NCBI GenBank assembly: GCA_027030485.1
Contig: JALVEY010000018.1
Span: forward strand, 1-41,923
DNA length: 41,923 bases
DNA from: Persephonella sp.
GTDB lineage: Bacteria; Aquificota; Aquificia; Aquificales; Hydrogenothermaceae
Reading direction: 5' to 3'
The position numbers were made by a program, and so were the translations under genes. The stretch's first letter is position 1. Every line of letters begins with the position of its first letter. Shown in pieces: positions 36,355 through 41,923 of this stretch. The notes under the pieces are model-generated. The model searched no databases. It was not told the origin of the DNA and saw only the letters and a list, made by a program, of their open reading frames with translations.

Positions 36355-37782
36355 ATGAGACTATCCGCAAGAATTTCCTATAATAAACAGGTTTTTATTG
36401 ATTGTAATAAAAATATAACTCCTGCTTATGCGGTAAATCTTTCCCTTCTCGGATTAAAAATAAAAGATAGTTTGCCTGATTGTTTAAGCTCAGAGATCAT
36501 TGTGATGATGGAGCTTGATCAGGATGTTTCTCTCAGGGGAAGAATTTTAAGAAATGAAAAAAGTGAGCAAGTTATATTATTTAAAGAGGATCCGGAAGTA
36601 ATATCTTCAACTGTAGGTAAATACCTAACTTCTAAAATATATAAAAGTGGAAAATGTCCTTTTTGTTCAAGACCTATAGAAAATCATGAAAAATACTGTA
36701 GAAAATGTGGAGTCTTATTTGATTATACCAGACCTGAGATTGTCCGTTTTATACAAGATTTTAAAATAGGGAAGTTTTTCTACGATGTTCTTACTGAGTA
36801 CCCAGATGAGGTTAAGGAAAACCTTCAAGACAATACAGAATTTGTAGGAGTAAGTAAAGAAATAAAACAGGTCTTTAACTTGATCAGAAAATATGCCACA
36901 AATGAATACCCTGTTCTAATAACAGGTGAAACAGGAACAGGTAAAGAACTTACTGCAAGAGCCATACATGAAAGAAGCAGCAGACGGGATAAACCATTTG
37001 TAGCTGTCAATTGTGCTGCTATTCCTGAAAATCTTCTTGAGTCTGAACTGTTTGGCTACGAGAAGGGTGCTTTTACAGGTGCTCATAAAAGAAAAATAGG
37101 AAAGATAGAGTATGCAAACGGCGGAACTCTTTTCCTTGATGAAATTGGAGATATGCCTCTTAACATGCAGGTAAAACTTTTAAGATTTCTTGAAGATCTT
37201 TCTTTTACAAGAGTTGGTGGTAATGAAGCAATATATGCAGATGTAAGGATAATAGCTGCCACAAATATTGATCTTGAAAAGGCTGTTGAAGAAGGGAAGT
37301 TCAGGGAGGATCTTTATTACAGATTAAATGTTTTAACCATAAACCTTCCACCATTAAGGGAAAGGCGTGATGATATTCTTGTTTTAGCAAAATACTTTTT
37401 AAACAAATATTCAAGAGAGGTTGGCAAAAAAATAAAAGGTTTTTCTAAAGATGCTGAAGAGGCATTATTAAGCTATCAATGGCCAGGGAATGTTAGAGAA
37501 CTTATTAATGTTATCAGAAAAGCTATCGTTCTTACGGAAAATAGTGTAATAAGGGAAAAAGATCTTGATCTTAAAAGAAATGGTTTAGGTGATGTTTACT
37601 GTGTTAAAACAGATTCATTAAATCTTAAAGAAAACGTTGAAAGGCTTGAAAAAGACCTCCTACAAAAGGCTTTTATAAGAACAGGAGGAAATATTTCTAA
37701 AATGGCTAAGCTTTTAGGGATCAGCAGACCCAAAGTTTACTCCCTTATTAAGAAACATAAAATAGGGGAGATTACAGATTAA
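36355..37782 (+). CDS. sigma-54-dependent activator with PilZ and zinc-ribbon sensor region
   Basis: A 475-residue enhancer-binding protein. Residues 1-90 look like a PilZ domain: RxxxR is Arg2-Arg6 and the [D/N]xSxxG motif is NLSLLG (28-33), together the c-di-GMP site. A zinc ribbon follows (CPFC at 101-104, CRKC at 115-118). The AAA domain has Walker A GETGTGKE (191-198), the sigma-54 contact loop GAFTGA (238-243) and Walker B LFLDEIGD (259-266). A Fis-type helix-turn-helix ends the protein (GNISKMAKLLGISRPKVYSLI). It faces the Fap-like cluster, sharing TTAA at the stops, and is the obvious candidate regulator; that link is inference. Confidence 0.92.
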   Translation: MRLSARISYNKQVFIDCNKNITPAYAVNLSLLGLKIKDSLPDCLSSEIIVMMELDQDVSLRGRILRNEKSEQVILFKEDPEVISSTVGKYLTSKIYKSGKCPFCSRPIENHEKYCRKCGVLFDYTRPEIVRFIQDFKIGKFFYDVLTEYPDEVKENLQDNTEFVGVSKEIKQVFNLIRKYATNEYPVLITGETGTGKELTARAIHERSSRRDKPFVAVNCAAIPENLLESELFGYEKGAFTGAHKRKIGKIEYANGGTLFLDEIGDMPLNMQVKLLRFLEDLSFTRVGGNEAIYADVRIIAATNIDLEKAVEEGKFREDLYYRLNVLTINLPPLRERRDDILVLAKYFLNKYSREVGKKIKGFSKDAEEALLSYQWPGNVRELINVIRKAIVLTENSVIREKDLDLKRNGLGDVYCVKTDSLNLKENVERLEKDLLQKAFIRTGGNISKMAKLLGISRPKVYSLIKKHKIGEITD

Positions 37783-38801
37783 AATCTGTAAGGAACTCTT
37801 ATTTCTACAACATAATCTGGGGCATCTGTTGTTAAACCGAGAGATACACCCATATTAAGTGAACTTTTAGAAGAGAGTGCCCATCCTACACCTACTTTAA
37901 GTAAAGCAGAATTTAATGTGGAGTTTATGACCTGATTTTTAATTCCGTTAGCCAGAACTTTTGTGTGAAAGGTATAATCTTGTGCAAACTGAAAGCTCAT
38001 AGAAAAATTATATGAAAGTGCGTAAGCAAAACCAAAATTTATGCTTAATGTATCCCCAGGATACACTTTTTCCAAATATGCACAACCTGAAGTCTCAGTT
38101 CCTCCACATATAAATCTATTAACGGTTGTTGGTATGTTGTACGAATATGACATACCACCGAAAACAACTACAGGATCCAAGCTTTTTACAAGAGATACTC
38201 CAAACTTTACTGATTCATAACCACTTCCGGTAGGCAGATCTTTTTTTGGATCATCAAGTTTAAAAGGACTTTTACCTGTTTTTGATTTATACGTCAAATT
38301 GGTAATAACAGCTGGCATCCTGGCAGTTTCTCTAATAGGCTGGAAAGATACGGCAAAGGATATGTCTCCTATACCAATCTTCTCTTTTCTCGTTTCCACA
38401 CCAGTTTCTGCAACTGTTAGTAATTCATATCTGTAAATAAATGGAAAAGTGGTTTCTATTTGAAGGTTATTTAACAATCCATATCTTAAGGATATGTTAT
38501 CAATAAAGATATGTCTTCTTGCCCTTTCTATCCCAAACCTTCCAAGTGTAAGGAAAACCGGATTAAGAATGGCAAAACTGTTTAGATAAATCTGATTTGC
38601 AGAGTAATAGGTATAATTGAATGTATTTTCAATCTCTATCTGTTTTTTCTTTAGCAAAACATAATCTCTCTCAAACTGAGTAAGAACTTCTTCAGGTTGA
38701 CTTTCTTTTTTTATAGCCTCTTTGGCTTCTTCTTCACTACTTGCCAAAACCGTAGAAGCAAAAACAGAAAGTAAAAAGAGAAAAATTAATGATTTTTTCA
38801 T
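37779..38801 (-). CDS. outer-membrane beta-barrel, FapF-like exporter candidate
   Basis: A 340-residue protein: signal peptide (MKKSLIFLFLLSVFASTVLA), a charged helical segment (about 21-55, SEEEAKEAIKKESQPEEV) that may form a coiled coil, then repeated amphipathic strands ending in the terminal aromatic IRVPYRF typical of outer-membrane barrels. This order, helical plug plus barrel, is that of FapF, the amyloid exporter of Pseudomonas; related barrels include phenol-degradation meta-pathway proteins. CGGTETSGC may be a disulfide-closed loop. The ATG at 38801 (GGAAGGGAT site) is preferred over the frame from 38834. It is the last gene of the cluster. Confidence 0.72.
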   Translation of the reverse strand: MKKSLIFLFLLSVFASTVLASSEEEAKEAIKKESQPEEVLTQFERDYVLLKKKQIEIENTFNYTYYSANQIYLNSFAILNPVFLTLGRFGIERARRHIFIDNISLRYGLLNNLQIETTFPFIYRYELLTVAETGVETRKEKIGIGDISFAVSFQPIRETARMPAVITNLTYKSKTGKSPFKLDDPKKDLPTGSGYESVKFGVSLVKSLDPVVVFGGMSYSYNIPTTVNRFICGGTETSGCAYLEKVYPGDTLSINFGFAYALSYNFSMSFQFAQDYTFHTKVLANGIKNQVINSTLNSALLKVGVGWALSSKSSLNMGVSLGLTTDAPDYVVEIRVPYRF

Positions 38802-38855
38802 ATAGATCCCTTCCAACCTCCTATATGTGTTCAAGTATTATTTACAACACCGCTC

Positions 38856-39590
38856 TTAGAACTCACTCGGGGATTTAAAAATAGGTAATGTACTATAAAA
38901 AACTGCCTCCCTTATTTTTGATGAATTAACCCATAACATCTCATCTTTTCTTATTTTTAGCCTATCCCCAATGTTTTTATTTGGCTCAACAACCAGTGCA
39001 ATATTTTTGTACCACATTTTTTCAAATTCTTCAATTGGTAATATCATACTTCCTAAAGCAGGATCTGCTAAGAATACTCTTCCTTTATATACTCCTTTAA
39101 AAATAACAAAATGTTTGTACTTTCCTATTACAATAGTAACAATAGCTGGTTTTTTAAAAGAAACTAAGCCTTTTACGTCTGTTTTATAACCAACGGCTTT
39201 ATAACCTAAATAACCAAAATACCTCTTTATATCAAGTAAAGAGAAACCTTTTCTTTCTATAATCTTTTTAACATTTCCAACCTTAAACAAATCATTAACC
39301 ACTTTTTCTTCAGAAATTGGGTAATTTAAGAAGTAGTTGAGAAGGGTCGCTACAGATGCAGAACCACAGCTAAAGTCAAGTTTTTGTTTAACTATATTCT
39401 TGAATTTAAAGGAATAAAAAGGTTTTACTTTTGTTCTTAGAACTATATTTATTCCATTAATACTTCCTATTTTTACATTCACAACAGCTTTTTTTTCGGT
39501 TGAATATGCAAAAAATGGTAAAAGAAGGAGGAGGAGAAAGCTTGCTATGATCTTATTGTTTGTGATTATTTTTAAATATGCAGGTTTCAC
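38856..39590 (-). CDS. exported C39-family cysteine peptidase, FapD-like
   Basis: A 244-residue protein with an N-terminal signal/anchor helix (residues 14-29) and a papain-like C39 domain. Catalytic residues are visible: Gln69 and Cys75 in QKLDFSCGSAS, His160 in KYKHFVIF and Asp176 in LADPALG. Unlike bacteriocin exporters it carries no ABC transporter. A free C39 protein between a repeat protein and an outer-membrane barrel is the hallmark of FapD, which processes the exporter system. The start is GTG at 39590 with GGGGGCAAGG upstream, the only start that keeps the signal peptide. Confidence 0.8.
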   Translation of the reverse strand: MKPAYLKIITNNKIIASFLLLLLLPFFAYSTEKKAVVNVKIGSINGINIVLRTKVKPFYSFKFKNIVKQKLDFSCGSASVATLLNYFLNYPISEEKVVNDLFKVGNVKKIIERKGFSLLDIKRYFGYLGYKAVGYKTDVKGLVSFKKPAIVTIVIGKYKHFVIFKGVYKGRVFLADPALGSMILPIEEFEKMWYKNIALVVEPNKNIGDRLKIRKDEMLWVNSSKIREAVFYSTLPIFKSPSEF

Positions 39591-39609: not shown

Positions 39610-40014
39610 CTAATGCCTTATAGCCTCTAAAATATTACTGATATTAATGTTTCCGTAATTGTCCCCAAATATAACTACCAGATTTACAGGTACATTAACT
39701 TCAGAATTTACTGCGTTAACCGGAATGAACGCACCCTGTTGGGCATTTCCATTAAGGAACAGGGAATCTTGTAAGTTGATAGGTGAGGAGGTGATGTTTG
39801 ACTCAATTTTTATTCTGTTTGTAAAATCTCCTGCTATGTTAAACGTATTACCAGAAAAGTTGCCTATTATTTGCCAATTAGTGAACAGCCCTTGAGCATA
39901 AACATCATCCAACATTTCGTCGGAGACTTTTTGTATCTTTACTCCCTCACCACCAAAACTGCTTGCCATTGTAAGAACAACAAACATCAAAACTGATAAT
40001 ACTCTCCACCTCAT
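39610..40014 (-). CDS. small exported protein of the Fap-like cluster, unknown
   Basis: A 134-residue protein with a signal peptide (WRVLSVLMFVVLTMASSFG). SDEMLDDVYAQG follows (about 32-43), then an Asn-rich, strand-forming body (NWQIIGNFSGNTFNIAGD). This composition resembles amyloid or minor fibre components. Its ribosome site GGAGGAGA is embedded in the last codons of the upstream gene. It may correspond in role to FapA, FapB or FapE, but I cannot match it to one. Confidence 0.6.
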   Translation of the reverse strand: MRWRVLSVLMFVVLTMASSFGGEGVKIQKVSDEMLDDVYAQGLFTNWQIIGNFSGNTFNIAGDFTNRIKIESNITSSPINLQDSLFLNGNAQQGAFIPVNAVNSEVNVPVNLVVIFGDNYGNINISNILEAIRH

Positions 40015-40401: not shown

Positions 40402-41923
40402 TTAGTAGTTTATAGCTGACTGAATAGTTGTTTGGTTAATTGTCCATCCAGAAGCACCGGTTATGTTAGCGATGTTCAGTCCAACGTTTGTAGCACTATT
40501 AGCGGTATTCAGTATTACCATTCCTGTTGTTCCAACCTGTGAGTTGTTCAGCTGTACAGAGCCATTATTGTTGTCCTGACCAAGAATTACAACGTTGTTG
40601 TTAACAGTTTGAGATGTATCTACTCCACCAAGATCGTTTTCAGCTGTTTGGATGTTAGATTGAGATACTATAGTTCCAAATGGAACACTTCCATTTACAT
40701 CAGCTATATTCATTCCAACATTTACAGCAGATACAGCTGAATTCAATGTCATCAATGAAGATACTCCGTTCTGTGCATCATTTAGCTGAATAGAACCGTT
40801 GTTATTATCCTGAGCAATTGCGAAATCGTTAGTTATTGTATGATCATCAAGATAGAACTCATTAGAAGCTTCTTGTATGTTTTCCTGTGTTACCTGACTA
40901 AATCCTTCAGGATTAATTAAGCTGACTATATTCTGTCCCACATTAGTTGCTGATACTGCTGAGTTCTGGAGGAGCGTTGTTGAAACGTTGTTTTGAGATC
41001 CATTTAACTGGACAGAAGCATTATTGTTGTCCTGTGCAATGCTAACACTAACTATGAAAGTACCAGAGTTTGTTACAGTCTGACCACCTTCTGTGTAGTT
41101 ATATGCATACTGCTCATTCATTTGCTCAACTAAATCAACACCTACAGAATCATCGATGTTAGCAACATTCTGTGCAATATTGCTTGCTGAAGAAGCAATG
41201 TTAGAGAAAGACATTGCGTTTATATCATTTTGACCACCATTTATCTGGACAGATGCATTGTTGTTGTCCTGTGCCAGATCAGCTTCTATTGCTAAAGATT
41301 CATTGCTTATACCCTGGTATGATGATGTAGCGTTATCAGATTCCTGGTAGTTGTACTGTCCTATAGCTGAAACATGAGCTAAAGAAGTAAATGAACCTAC
41401 GTTTTGTGCAAGATTAAATGAAGATGTTGTTGTGTTTGCTGCTGCCATACCACTGAAGTTGTTCTGACCGTCCCATACCTGAACAGAACCGTTATTGTTA
41501 AACTGGGCTATTGGATGAGAGAAGACAAGTCCGTTATTGTTAATCAATTGAGTTGATTCAGCGAAACTTGAAGCATACTGTTCGTTACTTTGGAATCCTA
41601 CGTTAAGTCCTAATATAGAATTTCCTGTAAGTATATTTTGGGCTGCGTTTGATGCTGAGTTTGATGTATTCAACATCGCCATTGAACTAACATTGTTCTG
41701 TCCTGACAAGACCTGTACAGAAGCGTTGTTGTTATCCTGAGCAACATTAACATTTATAACTCCATAATTTCCAATTTCTTGAGCTGCCCATGTGTCATTG
41801 TAAGCTTCTTGATAGTTTATCTGTCCTATAGCATTTCCTGCTACAGCGTTTGAAGCAATAGCAGCATTTTGTGCTATGTTAGAAGCTGAGTGAGCTGTGT
41901 TTGAAAGGATCATAGTGTTAACA
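40402..41923 (-). CDS. Gln/Asn-rich repeat protein, candidate functional-amyloid subunit (FapC-like), 5' end missing
   Basis: The last 507 codons of a gene that runs off the right edge; the ATG at 41913 is internal because the repeat pattern continues upstream of it. The protein is built of repeats of about 78 residues: AQDNNNASVQ-type segments begin at residues 58, 136, 214, 293, 367 and 445 (counted from 41913), each followed by QN and then by a second motif, NTxxSAxNxAQN, present seven times. It is rich in Asn, Gln, Ser, Ala and Val, and poor in Lys, Arg and Cys. The alternation of such repeats with variable linkers is typical of FapC and curlin-like amyloid subunits. It is first in a run with the C39 peptidase and barrel. 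Confidence 0.7.
   Translation of the reverse strand, partial: VNTMILSNTAHSASNIAQNAAIASNAVAGNAIGQINYQEAYNDTWAAQEIGNYGVINVNVAQDNNNASVQVLSGQNNVSSMAMLNTSNSASNAAQNILTGNSILGLNVGFQSNEQYASSFAESTQLINNNGLVFSHPIAQFNNNGSVQVWDGQNNFSGMAAANTTTSSFNLAQNVGSFTSLAHVSAIGQYNYQESDNATSSYQGISNESLAIEADLAQDNNNASVQINGGQNDINAMSFSNIASSASNIAQNVANIDDSVGVDLVEQMNEQYAYNYTEGGQTVTNSGTFIVSVSIAQDNNNASVQLNGSQNNVSTTLLQNSAVSATNVGQNIVSLINPEGFSQVTQENIQEASNEFYLDDHTITNDFAIAQDNNNGSIQLNDAQNGVSSLMTLNSAVSAVNVGMNIADVNGSVPFGTIVSQSNIQTAENDLGGVDTSQTVNNNVVILGQDNNNGSVQLNNSQVGTTGMVILNTANSATNVGLNIANITGASGWTINQTTIQSAINY
40408..41923 (-). repeat. array of about 78-residue coding repeats
   Basis: Six full and one partial repeat, period 78, 78, 79, 74 and 78 residues. 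Core 1 is [AG]Q[DF]NNN[AG]S[VI]Q and core 2, about 24 residues later, is N[TIS]xxS[AS]xN[ILVA][AG]xN. The second core 1 copy is AQFNNNGSVQ and the last is GQDNNNGSVQ. The DNA copies are diverged, so the array is old rather than freshly duplicated. Confidence 0.85.

Follow-up and report, generated by a model that had tools for sequence, protein, structure and literature searches.

The window, as we call the whole 41,923-nt stretch of DNA analyzed here, consists of one contig from a Persephonella genome (phylum Aquificota). A gene encoding a repeat protein lies on the minus strand at the end of the window, and its frame runs open into the contig end, where the 5′ end of the gene is lost; the ATG at position 41913 is an internal codon. 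Downstream of this gene on the same strand are, in order, genes for a 111-amino-acid (aa) exported protein, a 134-aa protein, a C39 peptidase, and an outer-membrane channel (Table 1).

TABLE 1 Features of the repeat-protein operon and its neighbor (positions in the window; a slash marks the end of the leader)
Feature	Position	Strand	Remarks
Sigma-54 activator	36355..37782	+	AAA+, HTH_8, weak PilZ; convergent to the FapF-like gene
Outer-membrane channel, FapF-like	37779..38834	-	PTG motif; FapF 2.4e-45; PDB 5o65 5.4e-33
Exported C39 peptidase, FapD/FilB-like	38856..39590	-	Catalytic Q69, C75, H160, D176 present
Predicted minor subunit, 134 aa	39610..40014	-	Sec signal, double-glycine-type leader, one repeat copy
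Putative C39 (double-glycine-type) leader of minor subunit	39892..39927	-	VSDEMLDDVYAQ/G; invariant D32, L35, A40, Q41, G42
Exported protein, 111 aa	40017..40352	-	Two invariant Cys (C44, C104); predicted YbjQ/DUF74- and RcsF-like alpha/beta fold
Predicted major repeat subunit (FapC-like), 3′ part, 506 aa	40402..41922	-	Open to contig end
Conserved repeat block 6	40471..40578	-	QDNNNGSVQLNNSQVG...
Conserved repeat block 5	40705..40812	-	QDNNNGSIQLNDAQNG...
Conserved repeat block 4	40927..41034	-	QDNNNASVQLNGSQNN...
Conserved repeat block 3	41164..41271	-	QDNNNASVQINGGQND...
Conserved repeat block 2	41398..41505	-	QFNNNGSVQVWDGQNN...
Conserved 36-aa repeat block 1	41632..41739	-	QDNNNASVQVLSGQNN...
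Second half of preceding repeat block	41863..41922	-	Residues 1-20, NTAHSASN; N...SA.N at residue 8

The motif [AG]Q[DF]NNN occurs six times in the 506-aa open frame, at residues 61, 139, 217, 296, 370, and 448 (window positions 41742 down to 40564). The spacings of 78, 78, 79, 74, and 78 residues are exactly those given in the preliminary description of this DNA; shuffles of the repeat protein yielded a mean of 0.002 matches and a maximum of 1. A second motif, N...SA.N, also recurs as described, with five copies plus a degenerate one (NTTTSSFN) versus a mean of 0.20 and a maximum of 3 in shuffles; one of the five, at residue 8, is part of the preceding repeat. When the protein was compared with itself at a lag of 78 residues, the identity was 23.4%, versus a mean of 10.4% and a maximum of 14.2% for shuffles. 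The two motifs had been described as conserved strands separated by a variable linker, but that arrangement did not hold. The motifs lie about 20 aa apart and together make up one contiguous block of ∼36 aa with a mean identity of 53% between copies; the variable linker, with an identity of 17% and a loose QxNxQxAxN element, sits between the blocks. The consensus over 130 repeats from the window and its relatives is QDNNNnSVQLNdnAQ..A.....N.A.SA.N.G.N[IVL].

The nearest full-length relative, from Persephonella sp. S012 (loci L025 and L015; L025:626-3733), is a protein of 1,035 aa; it has a Sec signal peptide, and its 13 repeats recur with periods of 74 to 82. Because the window fragment aligns to residues 529 to 1035 of this relative (62% identity), about half of the window gene is missing. 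Recovery of the full gene had been suggested earlier as a way to count its repeats, and the counts for full-length proteins come from relatives; the missing 5′ half was not found elsewhere in the gene's own assembly, which has only the window copy. The other complete genes counted have 6 to 10 repeats with periods of 91 to 132, and therefore linker length differs between lineages. The fragment has no Lys, Arg, or Cys residues, 17.6% Asn and 8.7% Gln (26% together), and a net charge of −35. The scarcity of Lys and Arg remarked upon earlier is thus complete in the window fragment, but it is not a general trait: the sum of the two residues is 10 in the 1,035-aa relative and 14 to 74 in other complete Persephonella and Aquificaceae homologues, so that the extreme absence is limited to the window species and its nearest relative. 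The full-length relatives have a signal peptide, 6 to 13 repeats, and no other domain. Neither an autotransporter domain (C-terminal beta-barrel), nor an RTX domain (Ca-binding nonapeptide repeats), nor a curlin domain was found in them, Pfam giving only leader-type and chance matches; the first two had been named as the results that would move the protein to another secretion class.

Between the window fragment and the 1,035-aa relative, dN is 0.29 and dS is 1.57; the repeat gene is under purifying selection. The biased composition, together with a broken gene in one relative of low completeness (G008), might be taken to mean that the gene is a low-complexity artefact or a pseudogene. That reading, to which we give next to no credence, is refuted by a fixed period far above that of shuffles, by a dN well below dS, by the intact relative, and by the conservation of the operon.

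The channel is homologous to the FapF-type outer-membrane channel; its match to the FapF model (NF058560, 2.4e-45) amounts to 155 of 700 bits, below the curated equivalog cut-off, and it also matches the NCBIfam model FilC. The peptidase is an exported protein with the catalytic residues of FapD and matches Pfam Peptidase_C39 (1.3e-20), FilB (3.4e-47), and FapD (1.2e-33), the last two below the curated cut-offs (116 of 330 bits for FapD). No match to the FapE model (NF058559) was found among the five operon proteins of the window, although one of them may be a functional analogue. The 134-aa protein aligned with the repeat profile with an hhalign E value of 2.7e-6, a score that 0 of 150 column shuffles equaled, and its own profile also detects major subunits in two Aquificaceae genomes. 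It is thus homologous to the major subunit, as FapB is to FapC, and with its single repeat it may be a FapB-like nucleator or cap. The predicted model of the 111-aa protein has 3qkb (Z 8.8) and RcsF (2l8y, Z 6.4) as structural neighbors. Of the 136 Aquificota genomes, 20 encode this protein, 19 together with the FapF-like channel, and it may be a periplasmic helper.

The same gene order is found in other genomes of Persephonella, Hydrogenothermaceae, and Aquificaceae. The FapF-like channel has a patchy distribution, with 23 of 136 Aquificota genomes and 7 of 14 genomes of the window's genus encoding it. Two metagenome-assembled genomes (MAGs) labeled Campylobacterota (L029 and L031, on contigs labeled Campylobacterales and Nitratiruptor) have a partial set of the operon genes, which may reflect transfer between vent phyla or a binning error. 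In the FapF tree, the Aquificota and the Campylobacterota-labeled sequences cluster together (support, 97/96); with long branches on the proteobacterial side and an arbitrary root, the tree gives neither the origin nor the direction of any transfer. The major-subunit gene also varies in arrangement. In one genome (G015, L016:2778-14499) it is present in three tandem copies interleaved with copies of the minor-subunit gene, and in a 55%-complete MAG (G008, L021:9423-11986) it is split into several frames, probably by sequencing error.

The preliminary description had proposed that the repeats stack as rungs of a beta-solenoid. An AlphaFold2 model of the repeats, built from 12 sequences, is all-beta (pTM, 0.65; mean pLDDT, 58, rising to 70 to 78 in the cores and later repeats). 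Its best structural neighbors are beta-solenoids and beta-helices, among them a SufD-like protein (Z 12.0), CsgA (8c50; Z 11.4, rmsd 8.6), and an antifreeze beta-helix (Z 9.1); a Foldseek search with the model returned no match below an E value of 0.001. The FapC fibril structures (9U4U and 9NQD, a Greek key) were absent from the structural matches, which proves nothing with a model of such low confidence. The all-beta character and the solenoid neighbors thus agree with the proposal, and the weak Foldseek E values and modest confidence leave the fold plausible only; as it stands, the model would fit a solenoid or a FapC-like Greek key alike.

A solenoid could also be the whole story. Each chain, secreted by way of the FapF-like channel, might fold stably by itself and serve, with no polymerization, as a non-amyloid adhesin or surface-layer-like filament. 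Long chains with many repeats (13 in the nearest relative), the predicted solenoid, and structural neighbors that include beta-helix adhesins and SufB/SufD all favor such a protein. On the other hand, a separate one-repeat minor subunit carrying the same block suggests self-assembly, the composition is rich in Asn and Gln, and the channel is related to an amyloid exporter. We regard the non-amyloid alternative as unlikely.

In relatives, both subunits, major and minor, have a leader directly after the Sec signal, as does a small peptide with an invariant KIILWDE motif (e.g., VSDDALEEVSGQ/G, VSDEELDDVYAQ/G, and VTLDELDEITGG/G). In spacing, this leader matches the double-glycine leaders that C39 peptidases cleave, which have a hydrophobic residue at −12, S/T at −11, L at −7, a hydrophobic residue at −4, G/A at −2, and G at −1. 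The window contains the minor-subunit leader only; the signal peptide, leader, and promoter of the major subunit are known just from relatives. Position −1 is G in the KIILWDE peptide and in the subunits of some relatives, the major-subunit leader ending in GG in one Aquificales clade, and it is Q in the Persephonella subunits. Glutamine at −1 is unusual for C39 cleavage. The regular expression for the leader matched 47 of the 442 open reading frames of the loci, and 46 of the 47 are genes of FapD/FapF loci; two of these 46 encode proteobacterial FapE-position proteins, of Vibrio and Photobacterium. Pfam leader models also gave weak matches in relatives, below the cut-offs (lactococcin, 2.9e-4; type-A lantibiotic, 0.012). 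The KIILWDE gene heads the operon in relatives (L018:9835-10047, L034:3242-3496, L041:3742-3996, L023:9017-9295, and others) and would be off the window contig. Its product has a signal peptide and a double-glycine leader, with a weak lantibiotic-leader match as its only Pfam hit; perhaps it acts as an anchor or as an analogue of FapE.

Leaders of this kind raised the question of a bacteriocin-like or contact-dependent effector system in which the C39 peptidase would export the KIILWDE peptide and a large carrier. The canonical double-glycine leaders and the lantibiotic and lactococcin matches are what such a system would have, but no ABC transporter or immunity gene was recognized in the operon, the peptidase is a free exported protein, the leaders come after Sec signals, and a long repeat protein dominates the operon. 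We rejected this very improbable reading for the lack of a recognized transporter or immunity gene.

What FapD cuts has been left open: Fap proteins lack canonical C39 sequences, FapE was the suspected target, and fapD-fapF pairs occur in five further phyla (Rouse et al. 2017, 2018; PMC5557850, PMC6173800); a December 2025 review considers that FapD processes FapE and FapF (PMC12822426). In Persephonella, the FapD/FapF pair adjoins its likely substrates; in relatives, three of these bear a leader known to be cut by C39 peptidases. The subunit leaders therefore suggest what the C39 peptidase cuts, and FapD-like peptidases would here cut the fibre subunits themselves. Four proteobacterial FapE-position proteins (L066:12077-12643, L068:4417-4926, L069:4882-5598, and L067:6976-7623), one of which matches the FapE model, have a segment with C39-leader spacing whose last residues are RGG or RGR, which would fit the processing of FapE.

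The sigma-54 activator is kept beside the operon in relatives L015 and L017 to L020 (other Persephonella) and is likely to regulate it. A −24/−12 sigma-54 site precedes the first gene in all eight Persephonella and Aquificaceae operons examined, with scores of 21 to 22 of a possible 22.5, and lies 13 to 30 bases before the start in seven of them; exact sites number just 4 to 12 per genome searched. These are the sites of relatives, the promoter of the window operon falling beyond the contig end. The site was absent in two Aquificales relatives of another clade and was weaker in one Campylobacterota-labeled relative. The activator also has a weak N-terminal PilZ match and a zinc-ribbon-like segment; a PilZ domain would suggest c-di-GMP input.

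The earlier proposal that this is a secreted repeat protein similar in kind to FapC and curlin gains support from the operon, which the repeat gene shares with a FapF homologue (5o65, E 5e-33) and a FapD-like C39 peptidase. By sequence, the protein could not be assigned to FapC or to curlin. The FapB and FapC models (NF058557 and NF058558) matched no repeats of the window or its relatives, Pfam gave no match to the repeat protein, and a PDB sequence search gave nothing credible and no FapC. When the repeat profile was aligned by hhalign with canonical FapC/FapB repeats, 36 of 150 shuffles scored as well; this canonical profile consisted of five repeats only, the plasmid collection having yielded no further FapC sequences. 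Because the repeats fail both the FapB/FapC models and the profile comparison, its subunits do not place the system within Fap, which it resembles in the way it appears to work.

The same evidence bears on descent. The operon might be a true orthologue of the complete Fap system that has diverged strongly, its repeats descended from those of FapC with an enlarged loop; this would be compatible with the reading we prefer. The exporter and protease are the same, the one-repeat partner is FapB-like, the hhalign alignment has an N-x6-N-x3-N spacing common to the window repeat and the FapC core, and the ∼36-aa block is close to the published 37 to 39 aa of FapC repeats (PMC6173800, PMC12392863). 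Set against these are a profile score not above that of column shuffles, though with just those five canonical repeats, and the failure of the FapB, FapC, and FapE models to match. Common descent of the repeats is therefore a tentative proposal, with the odds somewhat against it.

We conclude, with a probability of about 0.78, that Persephonella has a Fap-like functional-amyloid system and that the repeats are the units from which its major subunit forms fibres; the best explanation of the operon product is a Fap-like functional amyloid or beta-solenoid surface fibre. Sigma-54 and the neighboring activator would turn the operon on. Sec would export the repeat protein, the one-repeat minor subunit, and the small KIILWDE peptide, all retaining a second leader (hydrophobic-S/T-x3-L-x2-V-x-G/A-G/Q) that the C39 peptidase would remove in the periplasm. 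The FapF-like channel would then pass the unfolded chains, and outside the cell the repeats would fold into stacked beta rungs to give an Asn/Gln-laddered fibre, nucleated or capped by the one-repeat protein and possibly having a role in biofilms.

To judge from the sequences, this vent member of the Aquificota appears to have a Fap-like fibre operon whose repeat is either diverged or unrelated and which includes extra components. We think it slightly more probable than an even chance that the functional amyloids of thermophilic Aquificota that depend on FapF form a lineage of their own, in which subunits with a Sec signal and a double-glycine-type leader are processed by a periplasmic C39 peptidase. 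If so, it would provide substrates for the FapD/FapF pairs that, in other phyla, occur with no recognized Fap fibre gene, and would suggest a target of FapD that can be put to the test. It would also mean that a vent thermophile has an amyloid-like fibre built of many repeats, which is useful for stability studies, and would be of use in asking how different repeat numbers and unrelated repeat sequences can share one exporter.

Among known systems, Fap of Pseudomonas (fapABCDEF; FapC fibre, PDB 9U4U; FapF, PDB 5O65) shares with the Persephonella operon a FapF-like channel, an exported FapD-type C39 peptidase, a major repeat subunit with a related minor subunit, Asn/Gln-rich blocks of ∼36 aa with variable linkers, and a link to sigma-54, RpoN being a positive regulator of fap in P. 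fluorescens (PMC8202526). The differences lie mainly in the subunits. The window repeats do not follow the FapC/FapB pattern (GN-x-G-x-N...NQQ-x-N, 37 to 39 aa) and are not recognizable as FapB or FapC; the fragment has 6 of them, the nearest relative 13, and other complete genes 6 to 10, whereas FapC almost always has 3. The Persephonella minor subunit has one repeat, no FapE is recognized by model, and the operon adds the YbjQ/RcsF-like 111-aa protein and, in relatives, the KIILWDE peptide. The Aquificota subunits bear a double-glycine-type leader, whereas Fap proteins are without canonical C39 sequences (PMC5557850). The host phylum is outside those named in Fap surveys: the accessible text of a December 2025 survey names Fap in four phyla, Aquificota not among them, and our literature search found no paper joining Aquificota, functional amyloid, and Fap.

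The window peptidase and channel score about as well against Fil, or better, (FilB and FilC; the NCBIfam "putative pilus system," pilus_FilB and pilus_FilC) as against FapD and FapF, and by these scores Fil proteins appear to be equally near relatives of the exporter and protease. This likeness concerns the peptidase and channel alone, under curated cut-offs; a search found no literature on Fil proteins. Curli (CsgA/CsgB/CsgG) likewise has an Asn/Gln-laddered repeat subunit, and the predicted window model resembles the CsgA beta-solenoid among others; in contrast, the window operon has no curlin repeat recognized by Pfam, its pore is FapF-like instead of CsgG-type, and the repeat, in the window and its relatives, is 74 to 132 aa versus ∼22 in curli. 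Finally, EbfG and PteB of Synechococcus elongatus (PMC9981879) also combine amyloid-like matrix proteins, a double-glycine motif, and a C39-family protein. There, the proteins described are small and are secreted together with the C39-family peptidase transporter PteB (PMC9981879), whereas in Persephonella the proposed route is Sec followed by the FapF-like channel.
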